A stretch of DNA of 64,000 bases from Tribonema minus (Eukaryota; Sar; Xanthophyceae; Tribonematales; Tribonemataceae), in NCBI GenBank assembly GCA_017506865.1, contig JAFCMP010000049.1:62001-126000 (forward strand), in the 5' to 3' direction. How positions within the stretch are numbered: the first letter of the stretch is position 1; each line of letters begins with the position of its first letter. The position numbers were made by a program, and so were the translations under genes. A model generated the notes under the pieces. It worked only from the letters and a program-made list of their open reading frames with translations, did no database searches and was not told where the DNA came from. Shown in pieces: positions 1,750 through 64,000 of the stretch.

Positions 1750-3390
1750 AAGGCCACAGTGACTGGTTCATGATTGGCAAGAAAGGCCTTTGAGAAATTA
1801 AAGCAACGAACGTGACAATTGTGGGGTCACGACCACTCTGAGACAATGCGCCGGCAGATTCTGGCTTTGGCGCGACCAGAACAGGTACTACTACTACAAG
1901 GTACGTTCAAGAACTCGGAGCAGCTCTGCCTAATGCAGTCTTGGATCGATTCAGGTAGAGGTACCTGATTAATGAGCATCACCCACTCACTCACAGCAGC
2001 AAATCGAAATGCATCAGATGGAAATGACTGCTGCAAGCAATTTTAGCATTGTGCTTGGCACCTGATATTGCCTCCACGGTAGTCAAGGCCAGAGGGCCTG
2101 GGTGACAGTAGTCAGCAGCAGCTTGAGTGGGTGGCCGGCAGTCATGATCGTGCTGTCGACGAGCCACGGGGGTAGGATGCGTCACCTTGATCGGCCGGCG
2201 TGCTTGATTGCCTTCATCGAGCCGCGCTCGCTCCAAGTTGGTTGGTGCGCTGCCGCGTGGTGTTGATGTTGGGTTCCTTTGGCTGCATGAACTTAGCATA
2301 CCACCAGAGGCCCCAACCATCCATCAGCTGAACGTGTAGGTGGAAACAGCCTGCCCATGCCGCTGCACATGCGAGGGGCAGCGCATGACACGGCAATAAC
2401 AAAGTCACATCATGGTGACACACACTGCCTGTCGCCCATGTATGGTGCGATCTGATGGATGCAATATGCGTGCAAGCAGATAGATATACTGGGCACGCAG
2501 CAATGATGACAGTTGTTCACCTGTTTGACTGTCACCTATACAGCTGCTACGACGGTAGGTTTTGTATGGCCAGGTTCGGCATATGTGATGCTGACAGCCC
2601 ATCACAGTGACTGAGATTCGACAGTGTGTCAGATCAAGCACGCCTGCCTGCCCGTGTGAAGGACACATGAAGAGTGGTGCCACTAGTAGCACTCCCATGC
2701 AGAAACTGCTGTGCTCGTCCTCAGGCTGTCTGCAGGTAATTGCAGCGCGTATATTGCTGCGGATTTCAGCAAGTATACTGCTGCGGCTCTTAAGGATATT
2801 GGTGTTAATGCATGCGCGGTGTGACACCTGTGAACCGCTGAGCGAACTGCAAGGTACAACGACGAAATGGATCTGATGCGCGTCACAACAACGTCCAGCG
2901 CCCGACAAGAGACACCTGCTGCAGCACGACAGCAACTCACAAGTGGTCGATGCGGATGAAGGTTGGCTGGAGCTTGCAGTTAGTAAGGGGAGCAGTAAGC
3001 TTTGAAGGCATTGGCAGCAGGCCCCACACAACGTCCCTGTTCTCGCGGCGCGCTGCGGCATTGCCAGGGAACTGCTCGTACAACCCTGACATCAGCTCTT
3101 GATAGTCGTTGCAGTCGGCGTCCACATGGCGAGCTGCTGCAGCTGAGCCCAAAGCCGGCGCTTGCTAGCGTTGTTGTTGCTGTCGAGCAAGTTAATTGGT
3201 GCCTGGATGCCGACGTCGTCCAAATCTGGTAATTGGTGCCTGCGTCATCCTACTCTGCGCCTCTGAAATCCAACTGAGTCAGGCGCGTCTGCAGCTCCAC
3301 GTGGAAGTCTAACGTTAGTCATGTCCATCGTTGGTCACCAGCTCTGCCAAGTCATGCACAGGCCTTGGAGCGTCGCATGCATTGGCCAGG
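1750..3390 (-). pseudogene. Truncated, inverted relative of the Fanzor gene
   Basis: On the minus strand this region matches about 14.82-16.37 kb of the complete Fanzor gene. It covers the third exon (a clear run such as QELMSGLYEQFP and AAARRENRD near 2990-3110), the fourth exon (NTTRQRTNQ near 2240-2270, and PWLVD/LKLLL near 2100-2160), and the intron DNA that follows (near 1755-1800). Intron sequence is shared, so the copy arose at DNA level, not by reverse transcription. The RuvC-I, zinc-finger and RuvC-III exons are absent. In-frame stops and indels occur. It is useful as an aligner: across the lesion of the complete gene it shows where single bases were gained or lost. Confidence 0.75.
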
Positions 3391-4022
3391 CGTAGTCTGC
3401 AAGATGGGTGGCAACAAGCACTGTCACTATCATTGTACTTAAGACCATGCTAAGCCTGGCTGGAATGCCAAAGTCAAAAATATCAGACTGCAGGTAGGCG
3501 CTTACTCTGAGCAGGCTATCATAATCAGCGCTGTCTGCGGGTGTTCACATGTCTGCGAATTATTTCAGAACATCGCGAAGAGTCACATCTTAGCCATCAT
3601 GTTCTCTCGCGTTTATCGCAACTTGTCTTCCCACTGACATACAAACTATCAGTGTGATTGCGCTAACCTAAATTCGGCTTATGTTGCGGCTTATTGAAAC
3701 TTTTTAGGCGTAAGCCCTTCGCCCAAAAAGCACAAGCCTTATCTCGGCAGTTTGGCCCGAATGAGCCTGGTGTCAAAATTTCAACTTGGCTTACAGCACG
3801 CAGGCAGATAGACGTGCATAGGCACGATCAGAGCAGCTGCGGAAGGGCAGGAGGGCGTGGGGACGTTACAAGCAATCAGGCACACACCGCGTGCGGGCCA
3901 AAGCGTGATGTAGCGGCAGCGCTAGACGTTCACAGAGCAGGCGCAATTTGCACTCGCCAGTGCTGTGGACTAGAAAAGCCAGGCGCACCGGGAGCGTGCA
4001 GGTCAGAGATAGCAGCAGCAAT
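3391..4022. other. No supported gene
   Basis: About 630 bases. A plus-strand frame is open from 3694, but its composition is unremarkable until about 4023. I see no motif, RNA or clean repeat here. Confidence 0.5.
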
Positions 4023-7420: not shown

Positions 7421-8732
7421 GCGCAGCTCGGAAGGCAGCGATGTTGACCTCGCACCAGCGCTCTGCGACGTGATTCCTGCAGCCACCACGCACTCTGTCT
7501 GCAGTGAGAATATTTGTGCTGCCTTGGCAGCCAGCGCGGACATTTGATCTGTGCTCTCAAATCCAGCAGGCGACAGTGGCGCAGGCACTGTGACACGACC
7601 TAGTGTCGATTGTAATGGTGTCGGTGGCGGTTCTGCTGGGGTCAGCATCGATACAGCGAGCCCAGTCGAAACAACGGCGTCGGATACCGACAGCAGCAGA
7701 CCTGATGAGGAGGACCGCCCTGCAGTGCTCAACAGCAGTAGCGAAAACGATGCTGCGCCTACGGCACTGAGCATGGTCAACCCCACATGCCTCAGCAACA
7801 ATGGTGATGCTGGGACGCAGCAGGCTGCAGCTGGAAGTGGCCACGACATGGCAACTGGCGACCACGACTCTGGCACCGCACTCACCGTTGCAGCGGAGCC
7901 ATCGGTAGCTGGTGCGCCTCCACGTACTTCAGTCGCAAAAGCGCCCTCTGCTCGCGGCAGTGGTGCCAGACACCCTAGCAGGCAGTGTACTCATTGTGGG
8001 ATGCTCGGACATTTGGTGGCCCGCTGCCGGAAGCTGCATCCCCAGCTGAGACGAAATTTGTCACCTATACAGGCGGCGACAACAGCAATAGCGTCTCGAG
8101 AACAGTCTTCAGCGGCGCAGACTCCCATGATGCGTCGCGGTGGTGACAACACACACCGTCATGCTGGTGCGCGTCTACGTGCTACAGCTGGCTCAAAGAG
8201 TTCAGCAGGTGCCAGCAATCATACAGCCAGCAAGGAGGAGCGTGCTTTGCGCAAGCAGGTTGCACAACTCAACCAGAATGCTGCTGCCTTGTGCGAACGC
8301 TTGGCGAGATTGGAGAGCCGGGGGAAGGAGTCTGCTGTTCCCGCAGATGCGCATGCGGCGTCCTGCTGCAGTGGGCAGCGGTCAACAGCCTTCCGCGCTG
8401 CGCTTCAAGCGATTGTGGAGCTTTGTCAGCAGCTGCTGGCAGGTGCCGCAGATTTGCGGTCAACAGTGACTTCGCTCGACAGTGCGCTCGCGGACGGGTG
8501 CAGTGGCGTGACGGCACCAGCATGCGGCAGCAGTGGCAGCAACAGCACAGTGTGTGGTGGAGCCAAACCCAGCACCATCAACTCTGAGCACTGCAACACA
8601 GGTGCGCGCATGGCTGTTGGGGACAGCGGCCATGACATGCGCGGAAGCTGCACTGGAGGCAAGTCGTTGATCAAAGCAAGCGTCGCGGCATCTTTGCGGA
8701 GGCAACGGCTCCTCCTTGCCGCCGCACTGTAG
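7224..8732 (+). pseudogene. CCHC zinc-knuckle, coiled-coil (gag-like) protein with one in-frame TGA
   Basis: One frame runs from 7224 to 8732, interrupted only by TGA at 7545-7547. A related fragment near 12340 has TGC (Cys) at the same place, so the stop looks like a point change. From Met at 7551 the product is 393 residues: a Ser/Thr/Asp/Ala-rich N-terminal half; a perfect CX2CX4HX4C knuckle (CTHCGMLGHLVARC, about residues 146-159) inside a basic stretch; then an amphipathic coiled coil near residues 230-265. These features fit a nucleic-acid-binding Gag or a transposon accessory protein. No protease, reverse transcriptase or integrase follows in frame. The original frame continued past 8740, but a 474-bp element is inserted there. 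Which autonomous element it belongs to is unknown. Confidence 0.6.
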
Positions 8733-12245: not shown

Positions 12246-12370
12246 CTATGTACCAACAGCACTTTGCGCGCTGGTGATCTCTATAGGGCTTGCGCAATAG
12301 TCTGCAGTGAGGATATGTGCTGCCTTGGCAGCCAGTGCGTGTATTTGCTCTGTGCTCTCAATGACACAAG
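12246..12370 (+). repeat. Fragment related to the CCHC gene around its TGA
   Basis: The stretch near 12301-12360 matches 7498-7557 closely (ATRTK TGCTGCCTTGGCAGCCAG-type run, then TCTGTGCTCTCAA). At the position of the TGA in the 7.5-kb copy this fragment has TGC. It is too short to classify but is a useful third sequence for ordering mutations. Confidence 0.65.
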
Positions 12371-13029
12371 AGAACGAAAGCCCCCAACACGCGTTGACCG
12401 AAATTCCATCGATTCGATGGATATCCCACCTCAACTTGAAAGATGCGACTCTCCGCGCAGTTCTGGAAGGTTTTGAAGGTTGTTCAAGCAGGTGCGGCGC
12501 GCTGCTGATAGAGAGACGACAGGTGCGCACTCGCTGAGGTCATAAATTACTGATGGTGCTGTCGCTCACTGTCTTTGTGCACCACTTCGGTGCAGTGTTC
12601 GCCGCTACAGTATGTTTTAGTTCTCCTGAGGCTGCAGTGTCTCATGATGGCTGCAGTGTAAGTGTCGACGGATTATTCCTCGTCTTTTCAGGTTTGAGCA
12701 CGTTGCTTGCAAGGCTTCTTCGCTATCCATATCGCATGGCATCATCTTATCGCATCGCCAGTGCAGCATTCAGCATCGCTTTTTCGCATAGTATCCAACC
12801 GTGAGTCACGTATCCAATAGGATTCGGGTCTCTTGTGACTGAGATGGTGTATCTCGAAAGTGGCAATTTTCACTTGTCAGCCCCACCCCAGCACACCATG
12901 TTCCAAGCTCCCAGTACATCCACTTTGACTCGTGATCAAACCACCTGTGCCTAATTATGTGCCCACGCCATCAGTCACAGCCTGTCTCTATGTTTTGTCT
13001 CCTCCAAATGGTGCAGCGATTTTCACATT
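12371..13029. other. Upstream flank of the Fanzor gene, no gene seen
   Basis: About 660 bases with no supported coding sequence. It should hold the promoter and 5' UTR, or an unrecognised first exon, of the Fanzor gene. I see no clear TATA box or terminal inverted repeat. Confidence 0.4.
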
Positions 13030-16000
13030 ATGGCGGACCTGGTCAAGAGGCTCATCAACAGGTTCGGGCAGGCGGCGGTGAATACTGCCCAGGGGCACGA
13101 GCCCTCACACACACGCCGGCTGCACGAGACTCTGATGCGGACCTTCGAGCGAAGGCGACGCATCCTTGGAGCGGATCAAGGCGTAAAGCTCAGGCACAAG
13201 ACCGTCTCTTACAGCCTTGCAAAGGTCCTGCATCGGCACCCTAGCCTTGACATCGCCGAGACGCTCCAGGAGGCTGCAGATTACGTGGGGAAGGTGCCGC
13301 ATCTGGCCTCCTTGCTGGCCAATTACATCTGCACCCGGAAGCTAGATCTCGGACAGCCATTCCCCGATGCCACGCAGCGCTTCTTCATGGAGTGTTTAAC
13401 CTGCTATGTGCAAGGAGCGGGGGCAGGTTACACGCAAGGAGCAGGACCTGGAGCTGCTCAGGTACAAGAACAAAGTCTTCTCTTCTTCGCAGCGTGGTCT
13501 TTAAAGCGGTACCGTGCACTGGGCATCACTATTCGCTGCGCATCCGCACAACAACAGTGACTGTTTCTGCATTTAAAAAAAAGCGCATGCTGCTGCCTCA
13601 GGCGCAAGCTATAACTTTGGCCAGCGCTGGAACTCACGCAGGACTTCAACAGTGTCGCATAACTTGTTGTTCGTCCATGGCTCACGACTTTATCTGAGAA
13701 GGATGTGCACGTTGAGCCATTCATGCACGCTTGTCACACAGTTTCATGAAGGCAATCTTCCATCCAGCACATGATGACCTTGTCGACCAGTATGCCAACA
13801 GCCTCACAGTACCTGAATGACTTACGCAACATGCCTGGAAATGTCACCTGTGCGAGTAGTACTGACACTCGCACTGACCAGAATGCAAATCTCAATCAAT
13901 CTGTGATCATCACAGCTGGCTACTCTGGTTACAGCGCTAGTCAAGACAATCAAAGTCAGGGCGACGGTCAACCCATTCATGTCGAGTGACACGTGCTCCT
14001 CGTGTGCTTCCTGTTGCGCAGGTGCCCCCCTCGACGCTTCAACGATTCCAGGACCTGCGCCACAACAGCAATCTGCAGGCCACCTGGCCGCCTTGGCGCC
14101 TGCATGAGGTCTTCCTCTATGTGGCCAAGGACATGGCGACGGTTGCCAAAACGTACATACAGGTGCACTTCCAGCGGTGGCGCTTGGCCATCACGTACTG
14201 GGCCCTGTTCCAAGCCCTGCGGGCGCACATCATGAGCGACGATGATGACCCTGATACCCAAGTTGACATGACTGAGCGCCCGTTCACCAGGTGGGCGGCA
14301 AATGCCTAGTTAAATGCCCTGTATTCACAAGGTACACTGTGCATACATTTGCAAGCAGTTTCTGGAACGGCTCGCATCCTCTCATCAGCACCATGGCATT
14401 TTTGCAAGTGATGCGGGTGTCTCAACGGCTCACATTTCTGCTGTTTTTGTGGTGCACTACGTTCGGCGTGATGTAACCTGGACAGAGGGCTGGGTGCAAG
14501 CTGCATTCACACTTGCGCCAGCCCTGCTCGGCAGAGGTGGAAATGGCAGCAGGCAGCTGTTTTGCCATTGAGCAAGGTGGTAGTGAACAACTTCAACCTT
14601 ACTTGTTGGTTCAGCCACACGCTGCATGTATGCGCCTTATTCTGTCCCTACATGCAAGAAAGTTGATGTGTGATGGCCTGCTCAGAATAATCAACCCGCA
14701 GTCTGGATGTTCTTGACTTGGCCTTCTAGCCAGGCTTGGATGTGGCCTGCAAGTACAGTCAGAGCGACAGTGCTTGTTTGCCACCCAACTTGCGGACTTC
14801 CCCTTGCCAAATCGATTGCACGTGATGCTCCCAGGGCTGTACATGACTTGGCTGAGCTGGTGACCACCTATGCCGGCAACGACTTGCACGGGGAGCTGCA
14901 GGCACGCCTCAACCAGCTGGGCTTCAGGGGTGCAGAGCTGGACGATGACGGAGACGTGCAGGAGGGCGCCAATTACCTCAAGATCCTGGACATCTGCGAG
15001 ACAGTGCGCCACCTGCCCGACGGCGACAGCGACGCTAGCAAGCGCCGGCGTTTGGCACAGCTGCAGCAGCTCTATGTGGAGACCGACCGCACAGACTACC
15101 AGGATCTGATGTCGGGGCTTTTCGAGCAGTTTCCTGATGATGCCGCAGCGCGCCGCGAGAACAGGGACGCTGTGTGGGGCCTGCTGCCGGTCCCTCCAAA
15201 GCTCACTGCTCCCCTCCCCCGCTTCAAGCCCCAGCCGGCATTCATCCGCATCGACCGCACGTGAGTTGCCAACACGCTGCCGCATCTGTCTCATAGCTGT
15301 TGTTATCAGGTCCTTCGCCCTTCAAGTTGCTTGAAGTTCACTGACCAAAGTTGACAGGGGCACGGCGTACGCGTGCATATGGGTGCTCTAGGGCTGCAGG
15401 CATAGCCCCGCTGCGTAGCGCCTGTGGACAAGATGAGCACGCTTAGCCTACTAGTCCTGTAGTAGCACACTACATATAGATGTCCTATTAGCTTAGCTGC
15501 TGGTAGTAGTAGCACACTGCAGATGTCCTATCAGCGCGCTTGACCTGTATCAGCGCGCTTGACCTGTCACTCTGTCAACTTTTGGTGTGACAATCATGGT
15601 CTCATCACTCTAATACGCGTGATATGGTGATCACTGAGCGGCTGTCTGAGTCAGCATCATATGCTGAAACCTGGCAGTCACAGGCAAATGTGATGATTGA
15701 GATTGTCATATTCTCAAACCAGCTGGTTGGTTCCATGCTTGCATGCATTTAGTATGCGTCTCACCATGATGTGCTTTTGTTGTCGCTGTGTCATGCGCTG
15801 CCCCTCTAATATGCAGCGGCATGGGCGAGCTGCTTCCAGGTCTTGCTGCGCGGATGGCCGGCCGGGGCCCCTGGTGGTATGCTGAGTTCATGCAGCCATG
15901 GGCGAAGGCAGCCAACATCACCACCATGCGGCAACGCACCAACCACTATGCGCGCAGCGAGCGCGGTGTGATGCGGGCAATTGAGCGCGCCGGCCAACCA

Positions 16001-18514
16001 GGGTACCGATCCTGGCCCCGTGGCTCGTGGACAGGACCTTCATGACCGATGGGCACCCAGCTCAAGCTTCTGCTGGTCACCAGCCACGACTCGCACCAAG
16101 GCCCCCATGGCCTGACCAAACTGCCGCGGAGAGGTTATCAGGTGCCAAGCACTGTGCTTACTGATAGCTCGTAGGAATGTCTGGTTGTACCCGACTTGAT
16201 GTTAAATGCTGCATTAGGCGGAGCAGCTCGGAGTTCTACAACGCATGTTGCAGTTGCAGATGCAACCTGGTGAGGGGCGCGCGTCACAACTGTTGCGTCC
16301 GTTGATTCAATCATAGGTTGATTAATTGATTCAAAAGCTTTCTTGCCGATCATGAACATTGCCACTGTGGTATTAATAGTATGTCATACTTGCGCCATGA
16401 AGTCCCATTTTGCAATCTGACTCGATGGCGTGCCGACACAGTCTGGATATGATGTGAAAATTCAATGTCGACTGCATGCAGACACTGTGTAGCCTCACCT
16501 TTGTGACTCCAGCATGCCATCAGCATGCCATCAGTGAGGGCGCCGATTGTCATGGTGCTGTACTATAGCGTACGCCTCATGGGCAGACTGACAATAGTAC
16601 ACCCAACAGCTTGCTGATACCCCCCCCCCTCCTCCACTCATGTTCATTGCATTCTCCTCTGTCACAGGTTGGGTACATCAATGAGGAGCTGGGGGATGTG
16701 CTGGAGGGGGAGGTGGCTGAAGGCCCCAATGGGGTGTTCCGCCACCAGCGTGTGCACAGGGAGATAGGGGCAGAGCCGGCTACGGTGGCAGGCGGTACCC
16801 CTGCTGCACAGGAGCGGCTGCACGCCCTGGACCATGTCGTGGTGACTGGGGTGGACCCGGGCCAGGTGCTGGCTTTCAGTGCGGTCACTGCCCTTGGCCA
16901 GCGCTGGAGGCGCGATAACGCCGCGGATTTTGCAGCAAATCCGCCCCCAGAGGGCGAGGGCGTAACGGCGCAGGAGGTTTCAGGGGCGGAGTACCGCGTA
17001 TGGGCACAGTCTGTCCGCAATGAGCAGGAGGAGGCGCAACGCCGCGGGGCCAACCAGGCGTACAGCGATGCACTCGCGGCGCTCGCGGACAGGTACACGC
17101 GCACGGGCCGCTATCAGGTAAGAATCGCCGGGCAGCAGCACTGGGCCTTGTGTTGTCCGGAGCCAGCACCGCAGGCTCTTGCATGAGTGTGCTCTTGCCT
17201 TGTGTTATACTGCTTCAACAGTGCGCAAGGGCCCACTGCTGTCTATCTCGATGCACAATGGGAGCGAGCACATGACATCATGACGGTTGGACCTGACCGT
17301 ATTTGTCATTGAATCAGCAAGTGCCACATGACTGCTACAGTTACAGGAGCGCATCAGAGTTTTGAAAGTCTGGAGTGATGTGTGCATTCATATGTTCCTT
17401 GCTGTCATTGAGAGGTATTGGGGGTCTCAAGATCAATGGTACCTCACACCAAGGGCCTGTCATTCACTGAATTTTGGTGCACATGCATGCATGCATGACC
17501 GCTGCGTAGAGCCGATGATTGTGTGTCACTGTGCAGAGCTCTGACAGTGGGAGAAGAAGCCTTGGGGCTTTCGTGATGGTAGTATGTCCTCTACAATCTG
17601 ATGCGGTGGGCCCTCACGTGACTCTACCCCTGCCCCCACTGTAATGGTAGCCCCCACTCATTCCGCTCTGTGTACACACGGTGCCCTTGCTGGTGGCTGC
17701 ATCATCGCAGGTGCTGCGCGCCTACTGCACCACTTGGGGGCACCATGCAGATGCCATGTGGGGAGAGCTGCTGCACCCAGCACGACGGCATCAGAGGTTC
17801 AGCCGCTTCCGTGCGCAGCAGGCTGCCATTGCCAAGATGGCAGAAAAGCTGGCCCCAATTCGGCTGCAGCACAGGCCCCCGGGATGGAAGCGTGTGCGGT
17901 CACGCGGCCGCGAGTATCCACGGCGCAGGCGCAGGCACAGGAGGTGGCTTGACACGCACAGGAGGCCCCGTCGAATCATCTTCTTCGGCGCATGTGCGCG
18001 CTTCCCCGCCGGCGGCCGCGCCGCCATTCCCATCAAAAAATTGGTGGCGCAGCTGGCATGCCGGTGTCCGACATTGATGACGCCACAGCCATACAGTTCC
18101 GCCTCGTGCCTGGTGTGTGGACAGCCCACGCGGGGCGGCGGCGATGAGTTTGGGCACAGAAACAGGGTTTGCCGGAACGAGAACTGCGCCCTCGCTCAGG
18201 CGGCGGAGGGGGGGGTTGCTGTCATCGACCGCGACACCAATGCGCGTGCCAACCTCGGCATGCGCGGCGTCTATGCCACATGCGGCGTTGATGACATCAT
18301 CCCGGGGTATCCCCCGGCGGATCAAGAAGAGGAGGAGGACACCGAAGAGGAGGAAAGCGACGAGGAGGACGACGATGAGAAGGACGGCGACGAGGACGAG
18401 GACGGCGAGGAGGGCGGTGACGGCGACGAGGGCGGTGATGGGGGGGGGGGGGCGTCGATGACGGGGAGGGCGGTGGTGACGAGGAGGGGGTCGACGAGGA
18501 CGGGGATGCCATAA
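13030..18514 (+). CDS. Fanzor (TnpB-like OMEGA nuclease), six exons, one in-frame stop
   Basis: Exons 13030-13461, 14022-14290, 14835-15260, 15817-16141, 16668-17117 and 17711-18514 join in phase through GT-AG introns and give about 900 residues. Exon five holds RuvC-I (VVVTGVDPGQVLAF; Asp codon at 16854). Exon six holds the region IIFFGACARF...IPIKKLVAQL, a zinc finger (CLVCG at 18107-18121 and CRNENC), RuvC-III (VIDRDTNARANL; Asp codons at 18227 and 18233) and a long Glu/Asp tail. Such proteins are RNA-guided DNA nucleases of eukaryotic transposons. Two oddities occur. Exon four has TGA at 16043-16045, flanked by apparent compensating one-base changes (near 16003 and 16056-16061) compared with the inverted relative at 1.75-3.4 kb. 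Also, canonical RuvC-II Glu is absent (Gly in FFGA), and the relocated Glu seven residues before the first zinc Cys is Gln (CAG, 18086-18088). The start is uncertain; earlier exons are possible. Confidence 0.8.
18303..18514 (+). other. Acidic C-terminal tail of Fanzor with a G run
   Basis: Roughly 50 residues dominated by Glu, Asp and Gly (runs such as EEEEDTEEEESDEEDDDE). A run of 10-11 G near 18440-18450 follows, after which the frame turns Arg/Thr-rich. A length error or slippage in the G run would change the last ~20 residues, so the true stop is uncertain. Confidence 0.7.
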
Positions 18515-19463
18515 TGGCATGAGGGGCAGTATGGAGGTCATGCAGCCGGGGGGGGGGGCAGGCACGGGGGGTTCGTCACGCTGTGTGCGGGACTGCTGCA
18601 GCAGTACACTTCACCAGTCACTCATGCAAAAGCAGCAGACACAGGGTAGAAGTAGTGTACATCCTGCATTTGTGTTTGCAGGCGGGCGGGCAGTAGCACA
18701 ATGCTCTACCACTGCCAGAATTCTGGGCTGGTGTGCCTTTGGGCCTTGGTCACCAAGGAAACTTGAGTACCAAACGGACGTTGCAACGTCTGCGCTGGTC
18801 AAGGGCAATCTGCTGTTCGCAGCCTGCGGCAGCATGCCCTCATAATGAGGCATTTGCTGATCTATGTTGCGATGACTTGCGATGGTTGCAGCTCGTTGAT
18901 TGGATTGCCTCTCGCGTTCAGCCGCCACCCCTCTGTGCGCGTTGGTCCAGAGAGCATTGTTAACTCTACGAGCACCCGCCCTGGCATGATCTGCAGCAAG
19001 CTCGCTGCGCACTATGCTGCGGTGTCTCTCGTGCACGAGCATATGACTGCCTAGCACGGTTCTGCTGCTGTCGCGTCGATTGAACACTTTAGCCACCGCG
19101 CTGGAACCACGTCCACATCATGCGGCTGCAAGAAGGCGTCAGCCCTACCGCTGTGTCCACAACTAGCCACTCTTTTGCACCGCTTTGCTTGCGACCTTGC
19201 TGCTCTGATGCGACGGCCAATGAAGTGCTACTGCTGCTCGCTGCGGCTGCTGTTACTGCTGCTGCCACTGTCGCCGACACTGCGCATCGCTCGCTTCTGC
19301 TGAGTGCTTCGGATCAGTTTTCGGTTTCAAAGTTCAACACTTGAGAACATACAAGCTTGAACTCTGATCACCATCCCTTGGTCCCGCACGAAGTAGAAGA
19401 CGTGCGCCCACCCGGCGCGCGCTCGCACTCGCGGACTGTGACGCCCGCCGACAAATATATATG
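18515..19463. other. Downstream flank of Fanzor, no gene supported
   Basis: Several medium ORFs on both strands (for example 18611-19096 minus and 19120-19344 plus) lack motifs and look like chance frames. In known Fanzor and TnpB elements the guide (omega) RNA overlaps or follows the 3' end, so this is where one would look; I cannot identify it by eye. Confidence 0.4.
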
Positions 19464-37853: not shown

Positions 37854-40646
37854 CTATTCGCCTTCCCGCTTGATCGCCTTGTAGCCCAGCAAGCGCATGC
37901 CGTTGCCGAAGGCAATTTGCTGCTGTCGTGTGGTCAGCTGCCAATCCAGGAACTGCCGCACCAAGCAGCACAACAGCGAACATGCAGTGGCTTAGCTCAT
38001 GGATACAATGATATGGCGCAAACCGCCAAGCAGAGGCAGGCATGTCAACACAAAAAATGTCATCACAGGCAAGCGTCACCAGCTGCATAGGTGGGTGTAC
38101 TGTGTTGAAGTCATAATGATATGATGCGGAATGCAACCTGCCTTCTCCAAAATTTACGCACATAGCGTTGAACCTCAGGTGGATAGCCAGGTGGATGGGC
38201 ACAGCTGCCTCACCTTGTTCTCCATGAAGACGTTGACCTGCTTGAGGCGTGGGAACTGGTCTGAGGTCTTCAACGTCTTGAACATGTTCAGATACCATTC
38301 CCCCTTCGCTTTTTCGCCATCTGCATCCGTGCTGCCGCATTCCGCTATGCCGATAGGCAGTGTGGGATGCAATGCTGCCACGCGCTTGTATGAGTCCGGG
38401 AATAACTCGGAGAACTGCAGGAATGGCTTATTGCTGCCTTCGGAATCCCCGGCCCTGTGTAAGCATGGACATGAAATCACAGCAGCAGATTGTTTAGCAA
38501 GCAGCTGTACAGATCCGCCTCAAGATGACGCCAGCAGTGTGACAGCCCTGGGAATGTTGCAGGCACTTGAAGGTGGACATGGCATTTCCTTACCGTAGAT
38601 CACGGAGTATAAACCCCCCCCGTTTTAGCAAGTTGCGAGGCCCGTGTTCGGAAGACGGGGGGTCTTATACGGGGGGGGGGGTATTATACAATGTACCCCC
38701 CGTCTTGCACGCGCGTAAGTGGCTGCGGTAGCATATATCGCATGATATACACTGTAGCACTCAGCGACTGCAAGCAGCAGGCCGCAAATGAACGTTCTGC
38801 AACTCCTACCCTAGCACGCCTGGTTCAAACACGCCCTTGGCACTGCAAACACACGGCTGCAGAGGCATTGCACAGCAACGCAGGCCGCACCACCTGCTTT
38901 CGCGCTGCACCACAACTTGTCCCTCGCGCTGAATTATGCCGAAACGACTTGAAGTTGGCGTAACTGCCATGTTTCTTTGTCTACAACCCCGGTCTTCTAC
39001 AACACGTGCTTACCCCCGGTCTTATACAGCATACCCCCGGTCTTGCGTACACACACACACCTCCCTAGGGAGACGGGGGGTCACATACTACAGTATACGA
39101 TGGGGGGGTCTTATACAAGAGGGGGGTTTATACTCCGTGATCTACGGTAGTCACAGTGCTGGGAGAGCAACACGTTGTTTGCATCAAAGCGTACTGCTGG
39201 TGCGCGCTGATGATGTCAGAGATGAACACCACTCACCTGTTGTATGCAGTCGTCATGATCATGTCAACGTACTCGTCCCCCGGCCACCATGCGCTGAATG
39301 GGATCTTGTCGCCATGCACCGATTTGGCATTGTACGAAATCTGAAACTTGATGTTGTCGCCAGCACCATTTGCGCGCAGCAAGTCGACGATGTGCCTGAA
39401 TGACTTCTTGAATTTGGGGATGCTGTTGCCGTCCTTGAATGTACCCCACGGGTACCAGTCTGAGTTGAACTCGTGCAGGATGCGCACCCACATGAGATCT
39501 TTCATCTTGCTCATGCGCTTGCCGATTGCTTTGAGCTTAGCATCATAGCCACCCCTGAGAATCATCTCTAGCCCGCTCTCCTTCTTGGATGTCTCATTGA
39601 ACTCCATGACTAGCACAATCTCATGGCCCTGGTTTTGCCGGCGCTGCACGAGGCACAGGCAACAGTAAGCCAAATCTTCAGCATGTGCCTGTCAAGCAGC
39701 CTGCAACACACTATGTAATGCTCTTGGACATCTATGCGAGCTTGCCAGAAAACTGGACAGGGGGTGCAGCGACCCTTGGCGACACAAGTGGCTCCAACGA
39801 TGACTGGCTGCCGTCCCTGTGCGAAATGGGCTACAACATGAATCATCTGAAGCATCGTATCCACACCCGCTACACATGAAAAAAACGCGAACACGATCTG
39901 CACTGCAGTGTGGTGTAACAGAACAACGGATGATGTACTGTGTACTAGCGGTTACACACTGTTCAGCGGTCGTGTGTGCGACGCCGCATCAGTACTTCGC
40001 GACTACTCTACACCTTAAGCATAGTGATGCAGAGTGCGGCTGGGGTGGTACGCGGCACTGCGATCAGAAGCGCTGAAAAAAATGAACCGGTCTGATTTGA
40101 TCGCAACACAGAGCGGTAACGCCCAGGACGAGGCATTAACGCCAGAAGCCAAGCATTGGTGGCTTTGAGTACTGAATGCGCATGACGGCACCGCACTCTG
40201 CCCGCACCATTTGCGCAACAATCAATCAGCACGCGGGGCAGAAAATTACTCACCGTGATTTCGTAATCCCAATTGTCGAGCACATTGAAGCAGGGCTGGA
40301 ACACCATGGCGATGGGGATGTGTGCGCCCACCTGTTTCTGCCTGTCAGCTATGGAAACGGAGCCCATGGACACCCCTACGTCTATTCTTGACGAGATTGG
40401 CGTCGGGGCCTCTACCCCTGGCTTCTTGATAATCGATAGAAGGCCACGCGCGCGGGGCACATCACGCTCGTCGATTACCGATACGAGAGTAGGTTTGGCG
40501 CTGCTGCAACCCAATGCCAGCATCACCAGCATGAGCGCCGCCGCGGCTCCTATCGCCCATGCCCTGCCTCGTGCTGACTTGGTTGCTGTTCGCTGGAGAC
40601 ATTTCAGCGTACATTGTGCCTCCTGCGCCAGCTCCAGGTCCGCCAT
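37854..40646 (-). CDS. Glycoside hydrolase family 26 (beta-mannanase-like), membrane-anchored
   Basis: Exons 40646-40254, 39643-39237, 38454-38214 and 37952-37854 join in phase to 379 residues. A short basic N-terminus precedes one hydrophobic segment (about residues 29-50, AIGAAAALMLVMLAL), so a type II signal anchor or signal peptide is likely and the enzyme would act in the secretory path or outside the cell. The catalytic domain shows GH26 hallmarks: acid/base Glu in RILHEFNSDWYPWG, a YVDMIMTTAYN strand, and nucleophile Glu in PIGIAECGST. Family members cleave beta-1,4-mannans and related polymers by a retaining mechanism; the substrate here is unknown. The third intron position hosts a 555-bp MITE. 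The first exon and upstream DNA are duplicated at 43.1-43.8 kb. The start at 40646 is chosen because the preceding in-frame Met adds only ten residues before the basic stretch. Confidence 0.8.
38593..39147. mobile_element. 555-bp MITE with TA target duplication and G-rich repeats
   Basis: The ends are near-perfect inverted repeats: CCGTAGATCACGGAGTATAA at the left and its complement at the right, extended by C/G runs to about 27 bp. Each is flanked by TA (38591-38592 and 39148-39149), the target duplication of Tc1/mariner-type elements. The inside lacks coding capacity but repeats a GGGGGGTCTTATAC-like motif in both orientations near both ends. It lies in an intron of the GH26 gene and would be spliced out. 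Confidence 0.88.
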
Positions 40647-41251
40647 GGCTGCTGATGCGCAGGCACCCTTGCACACACACCGCTGCTGCTGCCGCTTTGC
40701 ACTGCTGGAAGAGCAGGCTTGCTGGCAGGCTTTGCTGTGGTTAAACTGGTTACGCCGAGTGCAACGAATTGGGGGATGATCCCCCCGGGGGCACCTGACC
40801 GACCTGACCGGCGGAGCTGAAGAATATAATCAATTTTATTCATCAGGTCCTGCACATGATGATGTTGGCTGTTGGTTGCGCAATGGTCCCAGCTCACAGC
40901 CTCCACCGTGCTTCAAGGCTGATGCTGCCTGCTCAAGCTCTCAAAAGTAATCTCTATAGCACCACACACTGTGGCACACAGCCATCAGAGGTGAGATGCA
41001 ACAGTCAGGGTCGGAATCACAGAAGGACAACCGACACAAGCCAGCAACGAATGTGGCGTCGAACATGGTGGTGTGGGACGAGGAAGGACAAGCACACAAG
41101 GCCGACTCAAGGTTCTTGAGCGATCCTCGTGGAGTATTGCCTTTTTTGTGCCAGTACAGCGGCAGCAGCAGCACAACGGACTGCTTGCTTCAGCGGATGC
41201 TAATTGATTGGCGTTGCGCAGTAAGTACTTCTCAGCGACCTCGAGCAGTGT
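40553..41251. repeat. Segmental duplication, copy at the GH26 gene
   Basis: About 700 bases, in direct orientation, nearly identical to 43102-43801. The block covers the beginning of GH26 exon one and the upstream flank. A single-base difference (an extra T in the distal copy within gctttt/gcttt) and scattered substitutions separate the two. Confidence 0.92.
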
Positions 41252-42249
41252 CGCACAGCCATGGCAGTTAAATGCAGCAGTCGTCAAGATTTACAAAAAC
41301 AAATATGCCGAGTTGAACTTGAGGAGCCAGCAGAACTTAGCCAAAATCTTGAAAAAGCAGCAAGATGTCTGGAACATAGTGCAATGGCTCATACATTGTG
41401 TGTGATGGCGCGAAGTATGCTATTATGATTCATCAAGACATGTTGACGACTCGCCAGAGCTCCCATACTGCCGCAGCGGTCGGATGGGATGTGTCGACAT
41501 GATCAGTTTGCGTTTATTGTCACCTATGGGCAAAAGCAACCGACGGTTGTAAATGCAGGCTCCCTGCCATGTGCTGAAGCGTTCTGTCTTTGCTGCCAGG
41601 AAGATTCCGACAGGCCTGGATCAGGTGTACCAAGCCAGTTACTTGAGTCCATGGGGCCGGGTATTCGCAAGAGATTCACTACACTGTGGCACTCACTATG
41701 TAATATATTCTATAGCCCAAGCTTGGGGGCGGGGGGGAAGTCCTGAAGATGCCTGCAGGGGGAGGTGGCTACATAGCAAAACATTGCAATGTCCAGGATA
41801 AATTGTTGATGGCATTCGGTGATTAACATGCTGAATGGCAAAGCAGGAGTTCAGCGCACATTTGCCTGGTGCACCATGGTGTCTTTTTTTGCAACCTCTA
41901 CAACTCTAGCTCACACCCTAGGGAGCTCCTGACAAATGCGCGCTTACTCCATGCCGCATGATGCCGACTTCATGAGAGGATCAGATTAGTGCTGTCACAT
42001 CTCACTGTGGCAGCACAGGGTGTGTACTGCTCCGCCTTTGAGCGCAAACGCCAAGCTCGCTCAGCTCAGGCTGCAGCCCGGATTGACGGCATGCAGCTCC
42101 GAGTCTGCCTTGATTTTGCATGTTGCATGGCTTCAGGTGAAGCCAGGTCCAGCCACTTTCCTCCACCAACAGTTGATGAGTGCCAGCCGCAGCTCTTGAT
42201 CGTGCATAGGTTGCTGAATCAACTGACCGCAACCTGCTGCGCGTTGAAA
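41252..42249. other. No supported gene
   Basis: About 1 kb between the duplicated block and a tandem repeat. Only short chance ORFs. Confidence 0.45.
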
Positions 42250-42715: not shown

Positions 42716-43101
42716 AGGGCTTAGTCCCCTGACCACATCATGATGGCAATACTTGTTGCAGTAATATGCCAACCGGGCCCCGCTGTGTGCTCCGGAGAGC
42801 AGCAGAGTTAGGTTGTGGTGCACGCTGCACACATTGATTCTGCCTCAATTGATTGTGAAGTTGATTAGTGTCTGCACACATGGCAGCCGTCGCTTCAAGT
42901 AATGTATCTCAGACAGTATCTGGCATAGTACACATGCAACCGACCGCAGATGAATCAGACAGGATGCAGCACCACGCTTGAGCGCAGCCCGCGCTCGAAC
43001 TGAGCAACTCCTGTGCCGCCTCAGCCTCGCATCAGTGCTAGTAGTTGCAAACTCCCGCACAGCGATCGCCGACACGTCGTCGATGCGTTTCAGCCCCACC
43101 G

Positions 43102-43801
43102 CCCATGCTGTCCCTCGTGCTGACTTGGTCGCTGTTCGCTGGAGACATTTCAGCGTACATTGTGCCTCCTGCGCCAGCTCCAGGTCCGCCATGGCTGCTG
43201 ATGCGCAGGCACCCTTGCACACACACCGCTGCTGCTGCCGCTTTGCACTGCTGGAAGAGCAGGCTTGCTGGCAGGCTTTTGCTGTGGTTAAACTGGTTAC
43301 GCCGAGTGCAACGAATCGGGGGATGATCCCCCCGGGGGCACCTGACCGACCTGACCGGCGGAGCTGAAGAATATAATCAATTTTATTCATCAGGTCCTGC
43401 ACATGATGATGTTGGCTGTTGGTTGCGCAATGGTCCCAGCTCACAGCCTCCACCGTGCTTCAAGGCTGATGCTGCCTGCTCAAGCTCTCAAAAGTAATCT
43501 CTATAGCACCACACACTGTGGCACACAGCCATCAGAGGTGAGATGCAACAGTCAGGGTCGGAATCACAGAAAGACAACCGACACAAGCCAGCAACGAATG
43601 TGGCGTCGAACATGGTGGTGTGGGACGAAGAAGGACAAGCACACAAGGCCGACTCAAGGTTCTAGAGAGATCCTGGTGGAGTATTGCCTTTCTTGTGCCA
43701 GTACAGCGGCAGCAGCAGCACAACGGACTGCTTGCTTCAGCGGATGCTGATTGATTGGCGTTGCGCAGTAAGTACTTCTCAGCGACCTCGAGCAGTGTCA
43801 C
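43102..43801. repeat. Segmental duplication, distal copy (5' part of GH26 gene)
   Basis: Carries a minus-strand copy of the GH26 N-terminus (MADLELAQEAQ...KSARG) up to the start of the membrane anchor. Beyond about 43102 the sequence is unrelated, so the copy encodes a truncated chimera at best. The same upstream flank is present, so it may still drive transcription. The open frame here continues to 42845. Confidence 0.88.
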
Positions 43802-44006
43802 GGCCATCTTCCGCTGATGCTGCAACGTGGCTCTATTCTGTCTGGCTGATCGGAACGCTGCATCAAGATGCACACATGAGTTCACACAGTGTGTTGCAGT
43901 TGACGCCCACACCAGTTTGTTTGGCGCAGATCACCTGCTGTCGGCTGATGGCCATGATGATTGATCGAAGTACGGCAGATTTCCTTCATGCTTGCCTTCG
44001 CCTTCC

Positions 44007-44149: not shown

Positions 44150-47100
44150 TGAAGGTGAGAGAGCACGACGGCCTGGCAGGCATGGATGGTGTCGATGAGG
44201 CGGCTGCTGCCCCTTGGCGTTTCTGGTAGCAGGCGGGGCGTTCTTGTATGGGCATGTGTGTGGAGGAAGCGACTGATGAACTTGTGTGCTGTGCTGCGTG
44301 CAGGCCGTCGCATGCGTTGCTGTTGCCTCTCTGGCGGGTGTGGCCGCTTTCACGCCCTCTGCCTTCGCCGGCAAGGCGCTGGCTCGCCCTGCGGCTCGCA
44401 CCCACGGTGAGTACCCTGGAGGATTGTTTCCTGGCTGCTTGCTGCGCATGATTGTGGTGTGTTGCCCACACGGGTAGATTTCAGAGTTCCCGCGTGCCTG
44501 TGCCTGGCACTGCGATCTGAGATCTGCAATTGCTGTTGCATGCACCTCTTTTGGCATGGCGCGTGCATGCGCTGCTGTCGATGGTGAGCTTGCTGCGCCT
44601 GCATTTGAAGCTTGATGGGATGGGGATCTGCTGGAGCAGAGCCTGTGTGCAAGCGCACGGAGCGATCGACGAAAGCTTGGTGGGAGGGCGGACTCGTGGG
44701 AAAAGGCGGGCGGGCGCGCGTGCGATGGAGCACTCACTGGCATGATGCCGCTCATGTACACAAATACAAGAGCAAGGCGCCGGCTTGCTTGCTGCGAGAA
44801 AGGTTCCTGGGCGCGAAGGAGATAGGAGCACCGTTACCTTCCGTTCGGCATAAGCGCTGGAATGTGGGAGTGCGTGAATCGATAGACGGCGTTGCTTCTA
44901 CCGTATCTGACGTATGTCGCTTCTCGCTGTCTGCTGCAGCCGTGACCCGCATGAGCGTGGAGGACATGGTCGGCATTGACGTGGAGACCGGCGGCCTGTG
45001 AGTTATTTCAAAACCTTCAACTCTTGCGATCACATCATAGCTGAGTGTCGTGCAAATGTCATCGCTCCAAGCTTCAGTGGTCGCGTTCATCGGCGACTTC
45101 GATCACTGCGACTTAGCAGGGCAATGGGTTGTTGATCAAGAGCAGCATATTGGGCGCGGCCATCTCACGTCACATTTTTTTATTGCAATCTCCTACGATG
45201 TCTCATGGTATGCAGTCCTGCAGCAATCGTGTTGCGTCATTCATTCGAGCCTTGCCTGACCAAGTTAGTAATTTTCAGGTCTATTGACACAACCCTTGTC
45301 TTGTCTTTCCTTTGTGCATGCAGCTTCGACCCTCTGGGCTTCTCTAAGGACGAGGCATCTCTGTTCCGCCGCCGTGCTGTGGAGCTCAAGCACGGCCGCA
45401 TCTGCATGCTTGCCACCTTCGGCGTGCTTGTCCAGACCTACGTCCACCTCCCGGACGCTGTCTTCAGCAACCCTCGTCCCATTGGCGCGCTTCTCCAGGT
45501 CAGCTCTTGGCTTCTGCAATTAACATGTTGCACAATGACGGAAGGACATGTCGGAACATGTGAAGGCTAACGTGAGAAGAACAGGCCGCGTGCCTCCACA
45601 ACAGCACATGCTGGCACAGAGACACAGTGACGACCGATAGCGATGGTTTGCATAGTTCATGTGACAGCTGACATCTTGGCCACATATACAGCGAAATCAA
45701 ATCATGACGACAGCACACGCTTGTAAACATGTTTGCGCGCATTTTTGAACTGCCACAGGTCCTGGACCAGCGCCCAGTGGCTGCTATCCAGATCCTCCTC
45801 GCCATTGGCCTGCTTGAGCTGACTGCTGGCGCACAGGACTATGCAAACAAGGCCCCCGGGGACCTCGGCCGGTAAGTTGTGTTTGCGAAGAGTACAAGGA
45901 TCCCAAGTGCTGCTGATTGGGTTAATTGATACATGCCTGATTTTGCAGAAGAGCGCACTTTCTATTTGTATCCAGGAGCACTTGCTGCTTTGTATTCATA
46001 GCTTTCACGGAGCTGTGCAGCACCTGGCAGTGTATTGTGGCACATGGAAGTGCATCACATGCAAATTAACAGACACTTTACCTGGATGTGAAGTGCATCA
46101 CATGCAAATTAACAGACACTTTACCTGGATGTGCCCATGGCAGGTTCGGCGACGCCTTCAAGCCTGATGACGCAGGGGAGCTGGCTGAGCTGCAGCTGAA
46201 GGAGCTCAAGAACGGGCGTCTGGCGATGATGGGCATCATGGGCATGCTGGTGAGCAGTCTCAACAGTGGAACAAGCTGAAACAGCTGACAAGCGAGATGC
46301 AAGGCAATTGCATAGAGTGCTTGGTGACTTGCAGTCACGAGTGGCCACAAGTGATTTTAGTGATCGCAGGGTATGCACCCGCGGTAGTCACGTGTGGCAA
46401 ACAGTGAGTTTGTGATGGCATCAGGTCTCAGGGTATATATATGCACACACGACATCATACCTTTGCAATCTTGCTCAATTGGAGTAGCGATATGTTGACC
46501 ACATCAGCAAGTCATGTCGTGAGCAGTATTTGTTTAACTCCTTGTATGTAGCTTACTCTTTGTGATGTGCATGCTCAGATTGATTTTTGTGGGCTGGAAG
46601 AAAAAAATTATACGATGGATCTTGATGCGTTGTTGCTCACCATGTCGGATTAATGATTTTCGTGTAAAGGCCAGTGGGTAACGTTTGTCGTGCAAGGTGC
46701 ACTTGAATATATGATGGATGATGATAATGATGTTGCTCACCACATCCAATTGATGGGGCACTCTCAGGTCCAGGAAGGTCTGACCAAGCAGGGGCCCATC
46801 GAGCAGCTGCTGGTGGGACACACATCTCCCTTCGGCGACGGCCAGGTACGTATTGTATGGCATGCCTCGCATGTACACATGCACTTCACATCTGTAAGAC
46901 AAGCTCTGCGCACCAGCACCCCTGCAGCGTTGCAAGTTGACACAGTAAAAACATGGCATGCGACGGATTGTAGTAAGCTGGTCACATGCAGATGGACAGA
47001 TGTTTGGTGTGTTCTGCAAGTCCGTTGTGCGTGTCAGGGCTGGTAAAGACGAAGAAAAGTGATGGAGTAAAAACAAAGTTTTGCATTCCATTCGCGAGAT

Positions 47101-60295: not shown

Positions 60296-61476
60296 CATAT
60301 GTGGTTCAAAAACGCCATACTCCCAAGGCAAAAGAACACAAGTCACGCACCAGTCAATTCATTACAGCATCGTGCGCCTGCTGCAGTGCCCTTGCACCCC
60401 CCCCACGACTTCATCATAGGCAAATCAGAAGAACGCCGCTTAATTCGATGACGCTGCAGACAGTGTTGCCTTGTGCTATGCCGATTTGATACAAGCTTTC
60501 TGTTTTCTGTGCTAGTTCAGTACAGAGCACCAGGGGAGTCGTTCTAGAACCGGACCATTCCTGGGACCGTTCTTCAACTTCAAGTCCTGGCCACTTGAGG
60601 ACAAGGCCCTTTTGCTCACTCTTGGTTCTGGCCCTGGGCAAGAGAGATATCCTGTTGGGAGACAGCAAGCCTTTCTGGAGCTGAGCCATTCAAGTGGCCG
60701 TCAGTCCATGTCCACAGAGGTGTGTCTCATTTCTCTTGCTTTGCTAATGTTTGTCCAGCAAGTTGGCTGCAACTTGGTCTCGCCAGCACACTACAGCCCA
60801 TCTGCCTTTGGCAGCATGGAAGCCAGGCCGTTTGCTGTATCAGATGGCTCAGCTCCAGCTTGCTATCGACAACGTTAGCACCAGAACAAGCTAGAACTCG
60901 CCAACTAGTCTCTCCGCAACCGTGCAGCTAGGCACGAAGGGTATTCCGAAGTGCAGCGTCCGCGAATACGTTGTCGCGATGGCAGCATCAAGGAAGCCAT
61001 AGGGATGCTGAGGTATAACCTGATGCGTCAGGATCCATCAGTTGCTATTATGTCATGGCAAGTCGTGTTTCCCTGCACACGACGACGCAGTTAGCAACGA
61101 AAAACTAGACTCGCGCTCCCTTGAAGCACAACAGCCGCCGAGCATAAAACCAAGATGCTGCAGCTGCTTGTAGAATTCCGTGAGCATAGACGTGCGACTA
61201 TGCAAACAGCGGTTTTCGATCAGTCGGTGTGAGCACCACCGGCTGAAGTGCACTTGATTCCTGGCACAAAATCGCACACAGCGTGAAACTCAAATGCTGC
61301 GGGACTGATCACCCCGAAGCATCGAGTTAACAATGTGGAGTTGTTATACGCTGTCTGGACTAGACCTCGTGGATCCTCCAGCACTTTTAAGTGGAGGGGG
61401 GATGACTTCTGCATAACCTTTGAGCAGAACTGCATAACCTTTGAGCAGACCGCGCTGCCTAGAGCGAAAATCTTGA

Positions 61477-62702: not shown

Positions 62703-63188
62703 AGCCCCAGAAGCTGCCACAAGCATTTCCTCAGCGACGGCAAGCTGCACGAGCACCAGGTGCAGCGCGCCCCTTGGTACGACCAGCGCATCGAGAAGCT
62801 GAAGAAGGAGAAGCGGCCCCGTGACCAGCTTGAAACCAGACGTGACGAGCTCTGCGCCCAAAAGCGCAACCGGACGAGTGAGTCACCTGGAATCACTTCT
62901 CGTGTCTTGCCTAGTGTACCCGTGGATGTTGACGCGCCAGAGCCGCTTGGGCTAGTCAAACATCTCATTAGCTCCACGCAAGACATGTTTGAAGTACCAG
63001 CTGCGCAGCCAGTGGCCGTTAAGGCCAGCGCACCGGTCACATGCGTGCTTGACAAGACAGTTGGCATTTACATGCTAGCCTCGGTCTTGTACGCGCATAG
63101 TGAATCAGCAGTGGTCAGTTATCTGGCTTCAAATATGATACAGCAAAACGGCCTGGCTTCCATGCTGCCAAAGGCAGATGGGCTGTAG
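62703..63188 (+). CDS. Hypothetical charged ORF inside the inverted-repeat unit
   Basis: An open frame of about 160 residues. It starts with a Cys/His-containing basic piece (SCHKHFLSDGKLHEHQ), then a highly charged helix (YDQRIEKLKKEKRPRDQLE, likely coiled coil), then a less charged tail that runs into the right inverted arm. No known domain. The charged helix is the kind seen in structural proteins of retroelements, but nothing specific supports this. Confidence 0.3.
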   Translation, partial: SPRSCHKHFLSDGKLHEHQVQRAPWYDQRIEKLKKEKRPRDQLETRRDELCAQKRNRTSESPGITSRVLPSVPVDVDAPEPLGLVKHLISSTQDMFEVPAAQPVAVKASAPVTCVLDKTVGIYMLASVLYAHSESAVVSYLASNMIQQNGLASMLPKADGL

Positions 63189-63493
63189 TGCTGCTGGCGA
63201 GACCAAGTTGCAGCCAACTTGCTGGACAAACATTAGCAAAGCAAGAAAATTAGACACACCTCTGTGGACATGGACTGACGGCCACTTGAATGGCTCAGCT
63301 CCAGAAAGGCTTGCTGTCTCCCAGCAGGATATCTCTCTTGCCCAGGGCCAGAACCAAGAGTGAGCAAAATGGCCTTGTCCTCAAGTGCTGGCCAGGACTT
63401 GAAGTTGAAGAACGGTCCCAGGAATGGTCCGGTTCTAGAACGACTCCCCTGGTGCTCTGTACTGAAGTAGCACAGAAACAGAGAGCTTGTATC

Positions 63494-64000
63494 ATCCCTC
63501 TTCTTTGAAAAGGGCCGCCTTGTGCGGGCCGTCTGGCCGGCATGATACTTGAAATCTCAGCAAGGCAAACTAGTTCTGTCGCATCACAGCCTGGGTTTCT
63601 GGTCTGGTCTGCTCTGGTCTGGTCTAGCGTGTGTACCGTTCACCATTCCTTCGCGCCAGGCGCGCGAACTCAACATGGCTTCAAGAAGTTCTGGGCATAG
63701 TCGAGGTCTAGGATGCGTGTCATTCACCATTCCTTTGCGCCGGGTGCGCAAGCTCAACATGTTTTTCAGATATACGCATCAGTGCTCTGTCACTCCTTTT
63801 TCACTGTGCGTGCGAGTTCAATGTGGCATTGCTAACTCGTGTGTGAGCGTTTGCTGGGTCTGGTGGCCTCCGCTTCAGTTGGCGGTTCCTTAGCAAGCTC
63901 ACGTGCTAGTAACAAGTTCCAGGATGACTGCTCAGCATGAGCATCATCATGATGGTATCCTGCTCTAAGCTTCAGGCGCTTCTCCATGGGCTTCTTTCCT
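63494..64000. other. Right edge; short tandem duplication, no gene
   Basis: A unit of about 85-90 bases (CATTCCTTYGCGCC, then GCGCRARCTCAACATG) occurs twice, near 63636-63680 and 63720-63765. An ORF runs through it at 63549-63893 without recognisable features. Confidence 0.6.

Follow-up and report, generated by a model that had tools for sequence, protein, structure and literature searches.

The 64,000-nucleotide stretch of the Tribonema minus genome analysed here (assembly GCA_017506865.1, contig JAFCMP010000049.1, positions 62,001–126,000 of the forward strand) is referred to below as the window, and its own numbering is used unless a contig is named. On its plus strand, at 13030–18514, lies a six-exon gene that had originally been predicted, from the sequence alone, to encode a Fanzor protein in an algal genome. 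What the prediction had missed is that the gene is part of an amplified mobile element copy, that its exon 4 is broken, and that its RuvC-II catalytic residue is a glutamine.

Gene structure and family assignment

The exons were read directly from the sequence. All five introns run from GT to AG and, as had been proposed, the exon phases join. Exon 1 (13030–13461) has an open frame and a GT donor, exons 2 (14022–14290) and 3 (14835–15260) have AG/GT borders, and the gene is completed by exons 4 (15817–16141), 5 (16668–17117) and 6 (17711–18514). Locus L048 of the same genome contains an uninterrupted open reading frame (ORF) of 779 amino acids, along which the six window exons, translated one by one, align in order: exon 1 with residues 65–146 (E = 3.7e-6), exon 2 weakly with 173–221 (E = 3e-3), exon 3 with 265–362 (E = 3.5e-6), the front part only of exon 4 with 378–421 (E = 1.4e-11), exon 5 with 514–604 (E = 1.6e-15) and exon 6 with 612–765 (E = 1.8e-19), all in a two-sequence search without composition correction. 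An exon 5+6 query recovers the L048 ORF genome-wide at E = 3.0e-21, and comparison of the spliced sister copy L039 with that ORF gives 241 bits. When L048 was shuffled 200 times, 182 of the shuffles gave some match, with a top score of 29.6 bits. Because six exons align in order with one uninterrupted frame and shuffles do not exceed 29.6 bits, the match is not attributable to chance.

The predicted motifs are in place. Exon 5 carries the RuvC-I sequence GVDPG, and exon 6 the RuvC-II position, a C4 zinc finger (CLVCG...CRNENC), the RuvC-III RD within DRDTNA, and a polyacidic tail that starts at about 18326 and ends in different frames among copies. The Fanzor/TnpB motif of Bao and Jurka, D-X(125,275)-[TS][TS]-X-X-[C4 zinc finger]-X(5,50)-RD (PMC3627910), is complete in the window copy, with D, 215 residues, SSASC, a C..C...C....C finger, 14 residues and RD. 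The Fanzor fingerprint further comprises a RuvC-I DPG and a RuvC-II glutamate six residues ahead of the zinc finger, and Fanzor1 proteins are marked by a TDG motif in the WED domain (PMC10711439). These Fanzor1 marks (DPG, TDG and the relocated glutamate) are seen among sister copies and relatives. VDPG is found in the window copy and most sister copies, its G being altered in two (C279 and C479); DPG and the RuvC-II glutamate position recur in the relatives L046, L048 and L007; and TDG, out of frame in the window copy, lies in frame in L048, in L007 and in the majority of the sister copies read. The window residue six ahead of the first zinc cysteine (codon 18086–18088, exon 6) is glutamine.

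Profile searches approach the same family through the relatives. L007 matches PF07282 above the cut-off (E = 3.8e-6) and L048 below it (E = 4e-4), and a family profile built from three rows has Guillardia theta Fanzor1 as its top match in the PDB, with the same motifs aligned. Several results weigh against the assignment. The PDB match is not significant (E = 0.4); Pfam searches of window exons 1, 3 and 5+6, and NCBIfam and PHROGs searches of exon 6, returned no TnpB/Fanzor family, so that the direct profile match proposed as a check was not obtained for the exons tested; and a structure model of L048 built from two sequences was worthless (mean predicted local distance difference test score, pLDDT, of 31). 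Single-sequence PDB searches gave nothing useful for L048 and a weak match of L007 to the TnpB-like protein L79 (E = 0.3), and no viral relatives of L048 were found in the viral_contigs set (10 pattern-matching stretches, none confirmed) or among phages. Considering (i) the complete motif, (ii) the DPG, RuvC-II position and TDG marks, (iii) the homology through L048 to L007, and (iv) the PDB alignment with the same motifs, we judge from these sequences that the window gene is of Fanzor1 type; the family qualifies, and the window copy fails the RuvC-II active-site mark. The Fanzor identity originally proposed is thus upheld through relatives in the same genome and the complete motif, and not through a direct profile match.

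The same genome holds further large Fanzor-like ORFs with DSG rather than DPG at RuvC-I (L006 and L008), as well as TnpB/Fanzor2-like ORFs with DMG (L002 and L003), of which L002 has an OrfB helix-turn-helix domain and scores above the NCBIfam TnpB cut-off. A photosynthetic host, whether alga or land plant, is supported by 92 chlorophyll-binding-protein matches.

Three-frame reading of the window and its sister copies revealed two offsetting frame shifts in exon 4 with a stop between them. Frame 0 runs to ...YRSWPRGSWTGPS, meets the stop and then resumes, and the stretch ending in FMTDG, which is in frame in most sister copies, lies in another frame. The proposed joining of the exons therefore stands, and the proposed open frame through exon 4 does not. 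With exon 4 shifted and the RuvC-II glutamate replaced by glutamine, the window copy very likely yields no working protein. Damage is common in the family. Pairwise projection covered nine long copies: the window, L029, L034, L035, L036, L039, L041, L042 and L044. Only L039 and L041 give joined exons without a stop, L041 being cut off within exon 6; the other seven contain stops, frame shifts, deletions or a lost splice site. None of the six long copies with glutamine at RuvC-II (Gln copies: window, L029, L034, L035, L041 and L044) is whole, and one of the three with glutamate (Glu copies: L036, L039 and L042), namely L039, is open.

The mobile element and its movement

A genome search with exons 5+6 gave 128 matches, many at 85–97% amino-acid identity, and a DNA comparison of the window with 20 fetched stretches defined a shared unit of about 6.4 kb at 12362–18848 (+). 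Its conserved body begins at about 12424, preceded by a left part from about 12362, and its right end, GCAGCATGCCCTCATAATGA, falls at about 18848–18851. Another repeat ends at 12361, and the stretch 12300–12361 matches other places by itself. The eight long fetched copies start at positions equivalent to 12385–12431; six of them end at 18827–18849, L034 at 18703 and L041 at 18251. The last letters of the 3′ part read ...CATAATGA, and the right-end motif CAGCATGCCCTCATAA (up to 3 edits) was found in 19 of 20 extra loci, after which most have TGA and then dissimilar sequence; L067, L068 and L040 are among the loci that have a common right flank. Left ends are more ragged. Among nine stretches, the tip starting AGCATGCCC is reached by L031, L036, L041 and L044, and the other five, the window included, stop short of it; the left end of L039 agrees with a tip at C224:977121, which lies within L045. 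With one mismatch at most allowed, the genome has 86 occurrences of the terminal tip motif and none of its reversed control. Introns are retained in the long copies, and L031 and L043 have lost internal sequence while retaining both ends.

The copies are not scattered evenly. Merging matches within 4 kb of one another turned 80 places from the exon 5+6 search, from which intronless relatives and many second pieces had been excluded and in which distant relatives (43–60%) were included, into 61 elements. A neighbouring element lies within 100 kb of 37 of these, as against a mean of 4.3 and a maximum of 15 in 2000 trials of random placement. The clusters, on contigs C9, C59, C49, C525, C224 and C41, are mostly one per contig. 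They are possibly centromeres or other transposon-rich regions; centromeres of green algae are transposon-rich (PMC12633428). At L037/L038 (C525:108200–123600) copies follow one another every ~5.5 kb, two of them with the same right flank, which suggests local tandem duplication. The window itself contains a second, older and degenerate copy on the minus strand (1893–3521), with ~75% DNA identity in the exon 3 and 4 regions and a stop. At C48:209629–209771 a terminal motif of the element precedes a match to a chlorophyll-binding-protein exon by ~40 bases.

Taken as a whole, it is quite probable that the window holds a damaged copy of a Fanzor1-carrying mobile element family of a photosynthetic alga, spread by Helitron-type copying, with guide-directed cutting carried out by the open copies. 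The six-exon gene sits inside a repeated unit that mostly keeps its right end and often loses left ends and interior parts. The unit, which appears to have no transposase of its own, would be copied as DNA by rolling-circle machinery of Helitron type acting in trans. An open Glu copy, e.g. L039, would produce a spliced protein that binds a guide RNA derived from the 3′ end and the flanking DNA, and the Fanzor1 RuvC site would then cut DNA matching that guide.

The 3′ non-coding end (18724–18851, +), which is fairly conserved, has hairpins and folds slightly better than shuffles, is only a candidate for the guide-RNA scaffold, for a rolling-circle 3′ hairpin, or for both. Among Gln copies its p-distance is 0.040, compared with 0.081 for intron 5 and 0.066 for silent sites. 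The sequence pairs AGGGCA...TGCCCT are retained in nearly all of 18 similar rows. RNA folding of the last 150 bases gave z = −1.90 for the window, −1.57 for L039 and −0.80 for L045, with −0.32 and −1.34 for two control stretches, and only 2 of 50 predicted pairs are changed on both sides; this lends weak support to a guide RNA. The left part of the window copy, whose tip is missing, also forms a hairpin (z = −1.77). Other measurements speak against these roles. In the nine long copies the last stretch has a p-distance of 0.032 and windows of intron 2 range from 0.032 to 0.055; since intron 2 windows are equally low, conservation of the 3′ part does not exceed that of stretches of this intron, and the 3′ part does not stand out. 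The fold of the last 62 bases does not surpass that of shuffled sequences (z = −0.77 as RNA, −1.14 as DNA), and the full left tips of L036 and L044 lack a 5′ hairpin (z = 0.30 and 0.95 against shuffles).

The genome has RepHel genes (15 matches to PF14214). None of the 15 adjoins any of the 86 terminal motifs, a count at one mismatch or less that would miss a partner with more diverged ends, and no target-site duplication was recognised by eye at element copies. As the hairpin marks are weak and no RepHel gene stands beside the terminal motifs, the Helitron assignment is likely but unproven. A different mover, for instance a tyrosine recombinase, or a reverse transcriptase acting on unspliced RNA, is a doubtful alternative. 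Constant 3′ and ragged 5′ ends also fit target-primed reverse transcription, the genome has at least 151 reverse-transcriptase matches, and the right-end motif has a look-alike, in direct orientation, at the left tips of L031, L036, L041 and L044. The long copies, however, keep their introns, on which ground we set a reverse-transcription origin aside; the internal deletions that spare both ends also count against it, as does the fact that neither an A tail nor a target duplication was recognised by eye. Helitron Rep matches of near-equal score lie within ~11 kb of contig starts (C19:6235, C342:10409, C111:6128 and C104:3721), and many reverse-transcriptase matches are likewise near contig starts.

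Glutamine at the RuvC-II position

The RuvC-II codon was CAG in 14 and GAG in 6 of 20 copies, the window included; the sample was taken from the sequences that match the exons of the window copy best, and so may lean towards Gln. Genome-wide pattern searches (up to 2 mismatches) gave 44 sites, 24 with G (Glu) and 20 with C (Gln), the latter including three unread cases that are C, A or T; 22 of the 24 Glu sites lie in or beside matches to the element family. A swap of the RuvC-II residue in about half of the copies scored is unusual. The relatives L046, L048 and L007 and the second relatives within L036 and L044 all carry Glu, which is therefore taken as the ancestral state. The two other catalytic aspartates are kept in every main-family copy in which they were read.

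Across 16668–18845, five of the six fixed base differences between Gln and Glu copies fall in one tract at 18064–18086 (+). Of 53 two-state sites, those of the tract included, only four have at least four fully linked neighbours within 25 bases, and all four are in the tract. On a tree built without the tract, the Gln and Glu labels need 6 changes, no fewer than shuffled labels; a single Gln clade was not rejected by the approximately unbiased test (p-AU = 0.133), and a separate FastTree run intermixed both labels. One old Gln tract, moved among copies by recombination or gene conversion, would explain both the linkage and the mixing of labels.

Pooled ratios of nonsynonymous to synonymous change (dN/dS) are 0.47 within Gln copies, 0.61 within Glu copies and 0.47 between the groups. 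Single-base codon variants restricted ('private') to Gln copies were set against a neutral expectation of 1 silent to 2.42 replacing changes, derived from intron 5 and the 3′ part. Those present in at least two Gln copies number 16 silent and 10 replacing (p = 6e-4), and the singletons, with 22 silent and 40 replacing, show no departure from neutrality (p = 0.17). At 46 conserved positions, invariant in L039, L048 and L007, the Gln copies have 2 replacing variants as against 84 at 309 others (p = 0.0003), and the Glu copies 7 as against 89 at the same positions (p = 0.07); when replacing and silent variants at these conserved sites are contrasted, the signal for the Gln copies is weaker (p = 0.055). 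Apart from codons with insertions or deletions, 13 of the 14 Gln copies, several of them partly read, have no stop in the exon 5–6 codons read, where only ~3% of random changes would make one. These constraint data favour some function of the Gln copies, yet none of the six long ones is intact.

Replacement of Glu by Gln in RuvC-II usually abolishes cutting, and we predict that the Gln copies are nuclease-dead. These copies can be read in two ways. The account we lean towards takes the glutamine as a passenger change in a non-autonomous element that is copied in trans and to whose spread Fanzor activity is irrelevant. Every one of the six long Gln copies is damaged or truncated, as are two of the three long Glu copies; no transposase was noticed in the unit, and internally deleted copies such as L031 and L043 have kept both ends. 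The signals of constraint at conserved positions and in shared private variants do not sit easily with this account, nor does the near-lack of stops, a point lessened by their rarity under chance.

It is quite unlikely that the Gln copies instead encode Asp-Gln-Asp (D-Q-D) Fanzor1 proteins that act as non-cutting RNA-guided DNA binders or as cutters with altered metal use. Their frequency, the retained aspartates, the depletion of replacing variants at conserved positions and the excess of silent changes among shared private variants speak for such proteins. That an amide can be tolerated at one catalytic position is indicated by GtFz1, which is active with Asn as its third catalytic residue (D-E-N), and by SpuFz1 D606N, which cuts better than the wild type (PMC11423790). 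Against D-Q-D proteins stand the lack of any intact long Gln copy, as against one open copy among three long Glu ones, the neutral fit of private singletons and the weaker replacing-to-silent contrast. Moreover, only six Glu copies were sampled, so that 'private' variants may be older, and the Gln copies are not demonstrably one lineage. The usual loss of cutting after such a replacement counts against them as well. There is, finally, a slim chance that a mobile Gln Fanzor1 has been under protein constraint while multiplying, as a eukaryotic counterpart of the nuclease-dead TnpB repressors or as a D-Q-D cutter.

Related systems and the rest of the window

Fanzor-carrying mobile elements are already known from green algae, to which the active-site variant is an interesting addition. 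The closest parallels, CRe-1, CRe-2 and CRe-3 of Chlamydomonas reinhardtii, are non-autonomous Helitron2 elements with Fanzor1 genes of 5 or 10 exons (PMC3627910). Like the present family, they are multi-exon algal Fanzor1 elements of high copy number, often truncated at the 5′ end or internally deleted and with a 3′ end that is almost always intact; they differ from it in having ends that match those of known Helitrons, and target duplications at many copies (PMC3627910); neither feature was found here. The portion of their description available to us makes no mention of a RuvC-II glutamine (PMC3627910). In the green alga Auxenochlorella, a Fanzor-coding element is the most abundant repeat, described in the accessible part of that report only as uncharacterised (PMC12633428).

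GtFz1 (PDB 9CER; PMC11423790), the Guillardia theta protein that gave the top, non-significant PDB match, shares a non-canonical catalytic triad with the Gln copies. In GtFz1, which is active, the departure is at the third residue (Asn for Asp), whereas in the present family it is at the second (Gln for Glu) and activity is a matter of prediction. TldR proteins, the nuclease-dead TnpB repressors, resemble the Gln copies in having lost RuvC catalysis and kept the rest, the loss being a prediction for the Gln copies; TldRs are bacterial and domesticated beside the genes they regulate (PMC13418256). No natural nuclease-dead Fanzor was found among titles and the opening parts of abstracts of the papers listed, subscription journals being mostly outside this scope. 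Since this one genome harbours dozens of copies, some with the Glu and some with the Gln version of the same protein, the family amounts to a natural experiment on whether cutting helps the element to spread: cutting is dispensable for spread if the Gln copies do no worse than the Glu copies, and the standard triad is dispensable for Fanzor action if the Gln proteins work.

Elsewhere in the window, Pfam searches of ten long ORFs gave nothing at E = 0.01. Two chlorophyll a/b-binding protein matches at about 45319–46255 (+; C49:107319–107477 and C49:108055–108255) probably mark a host nuclear gene. Three duplications were also observed: 31–963 with 7617–8545 (85% identity), 40554–41262 with 43100–43807 (98%), and, in inverted orientation, 60487–60845 with 63133–63494 (96%).

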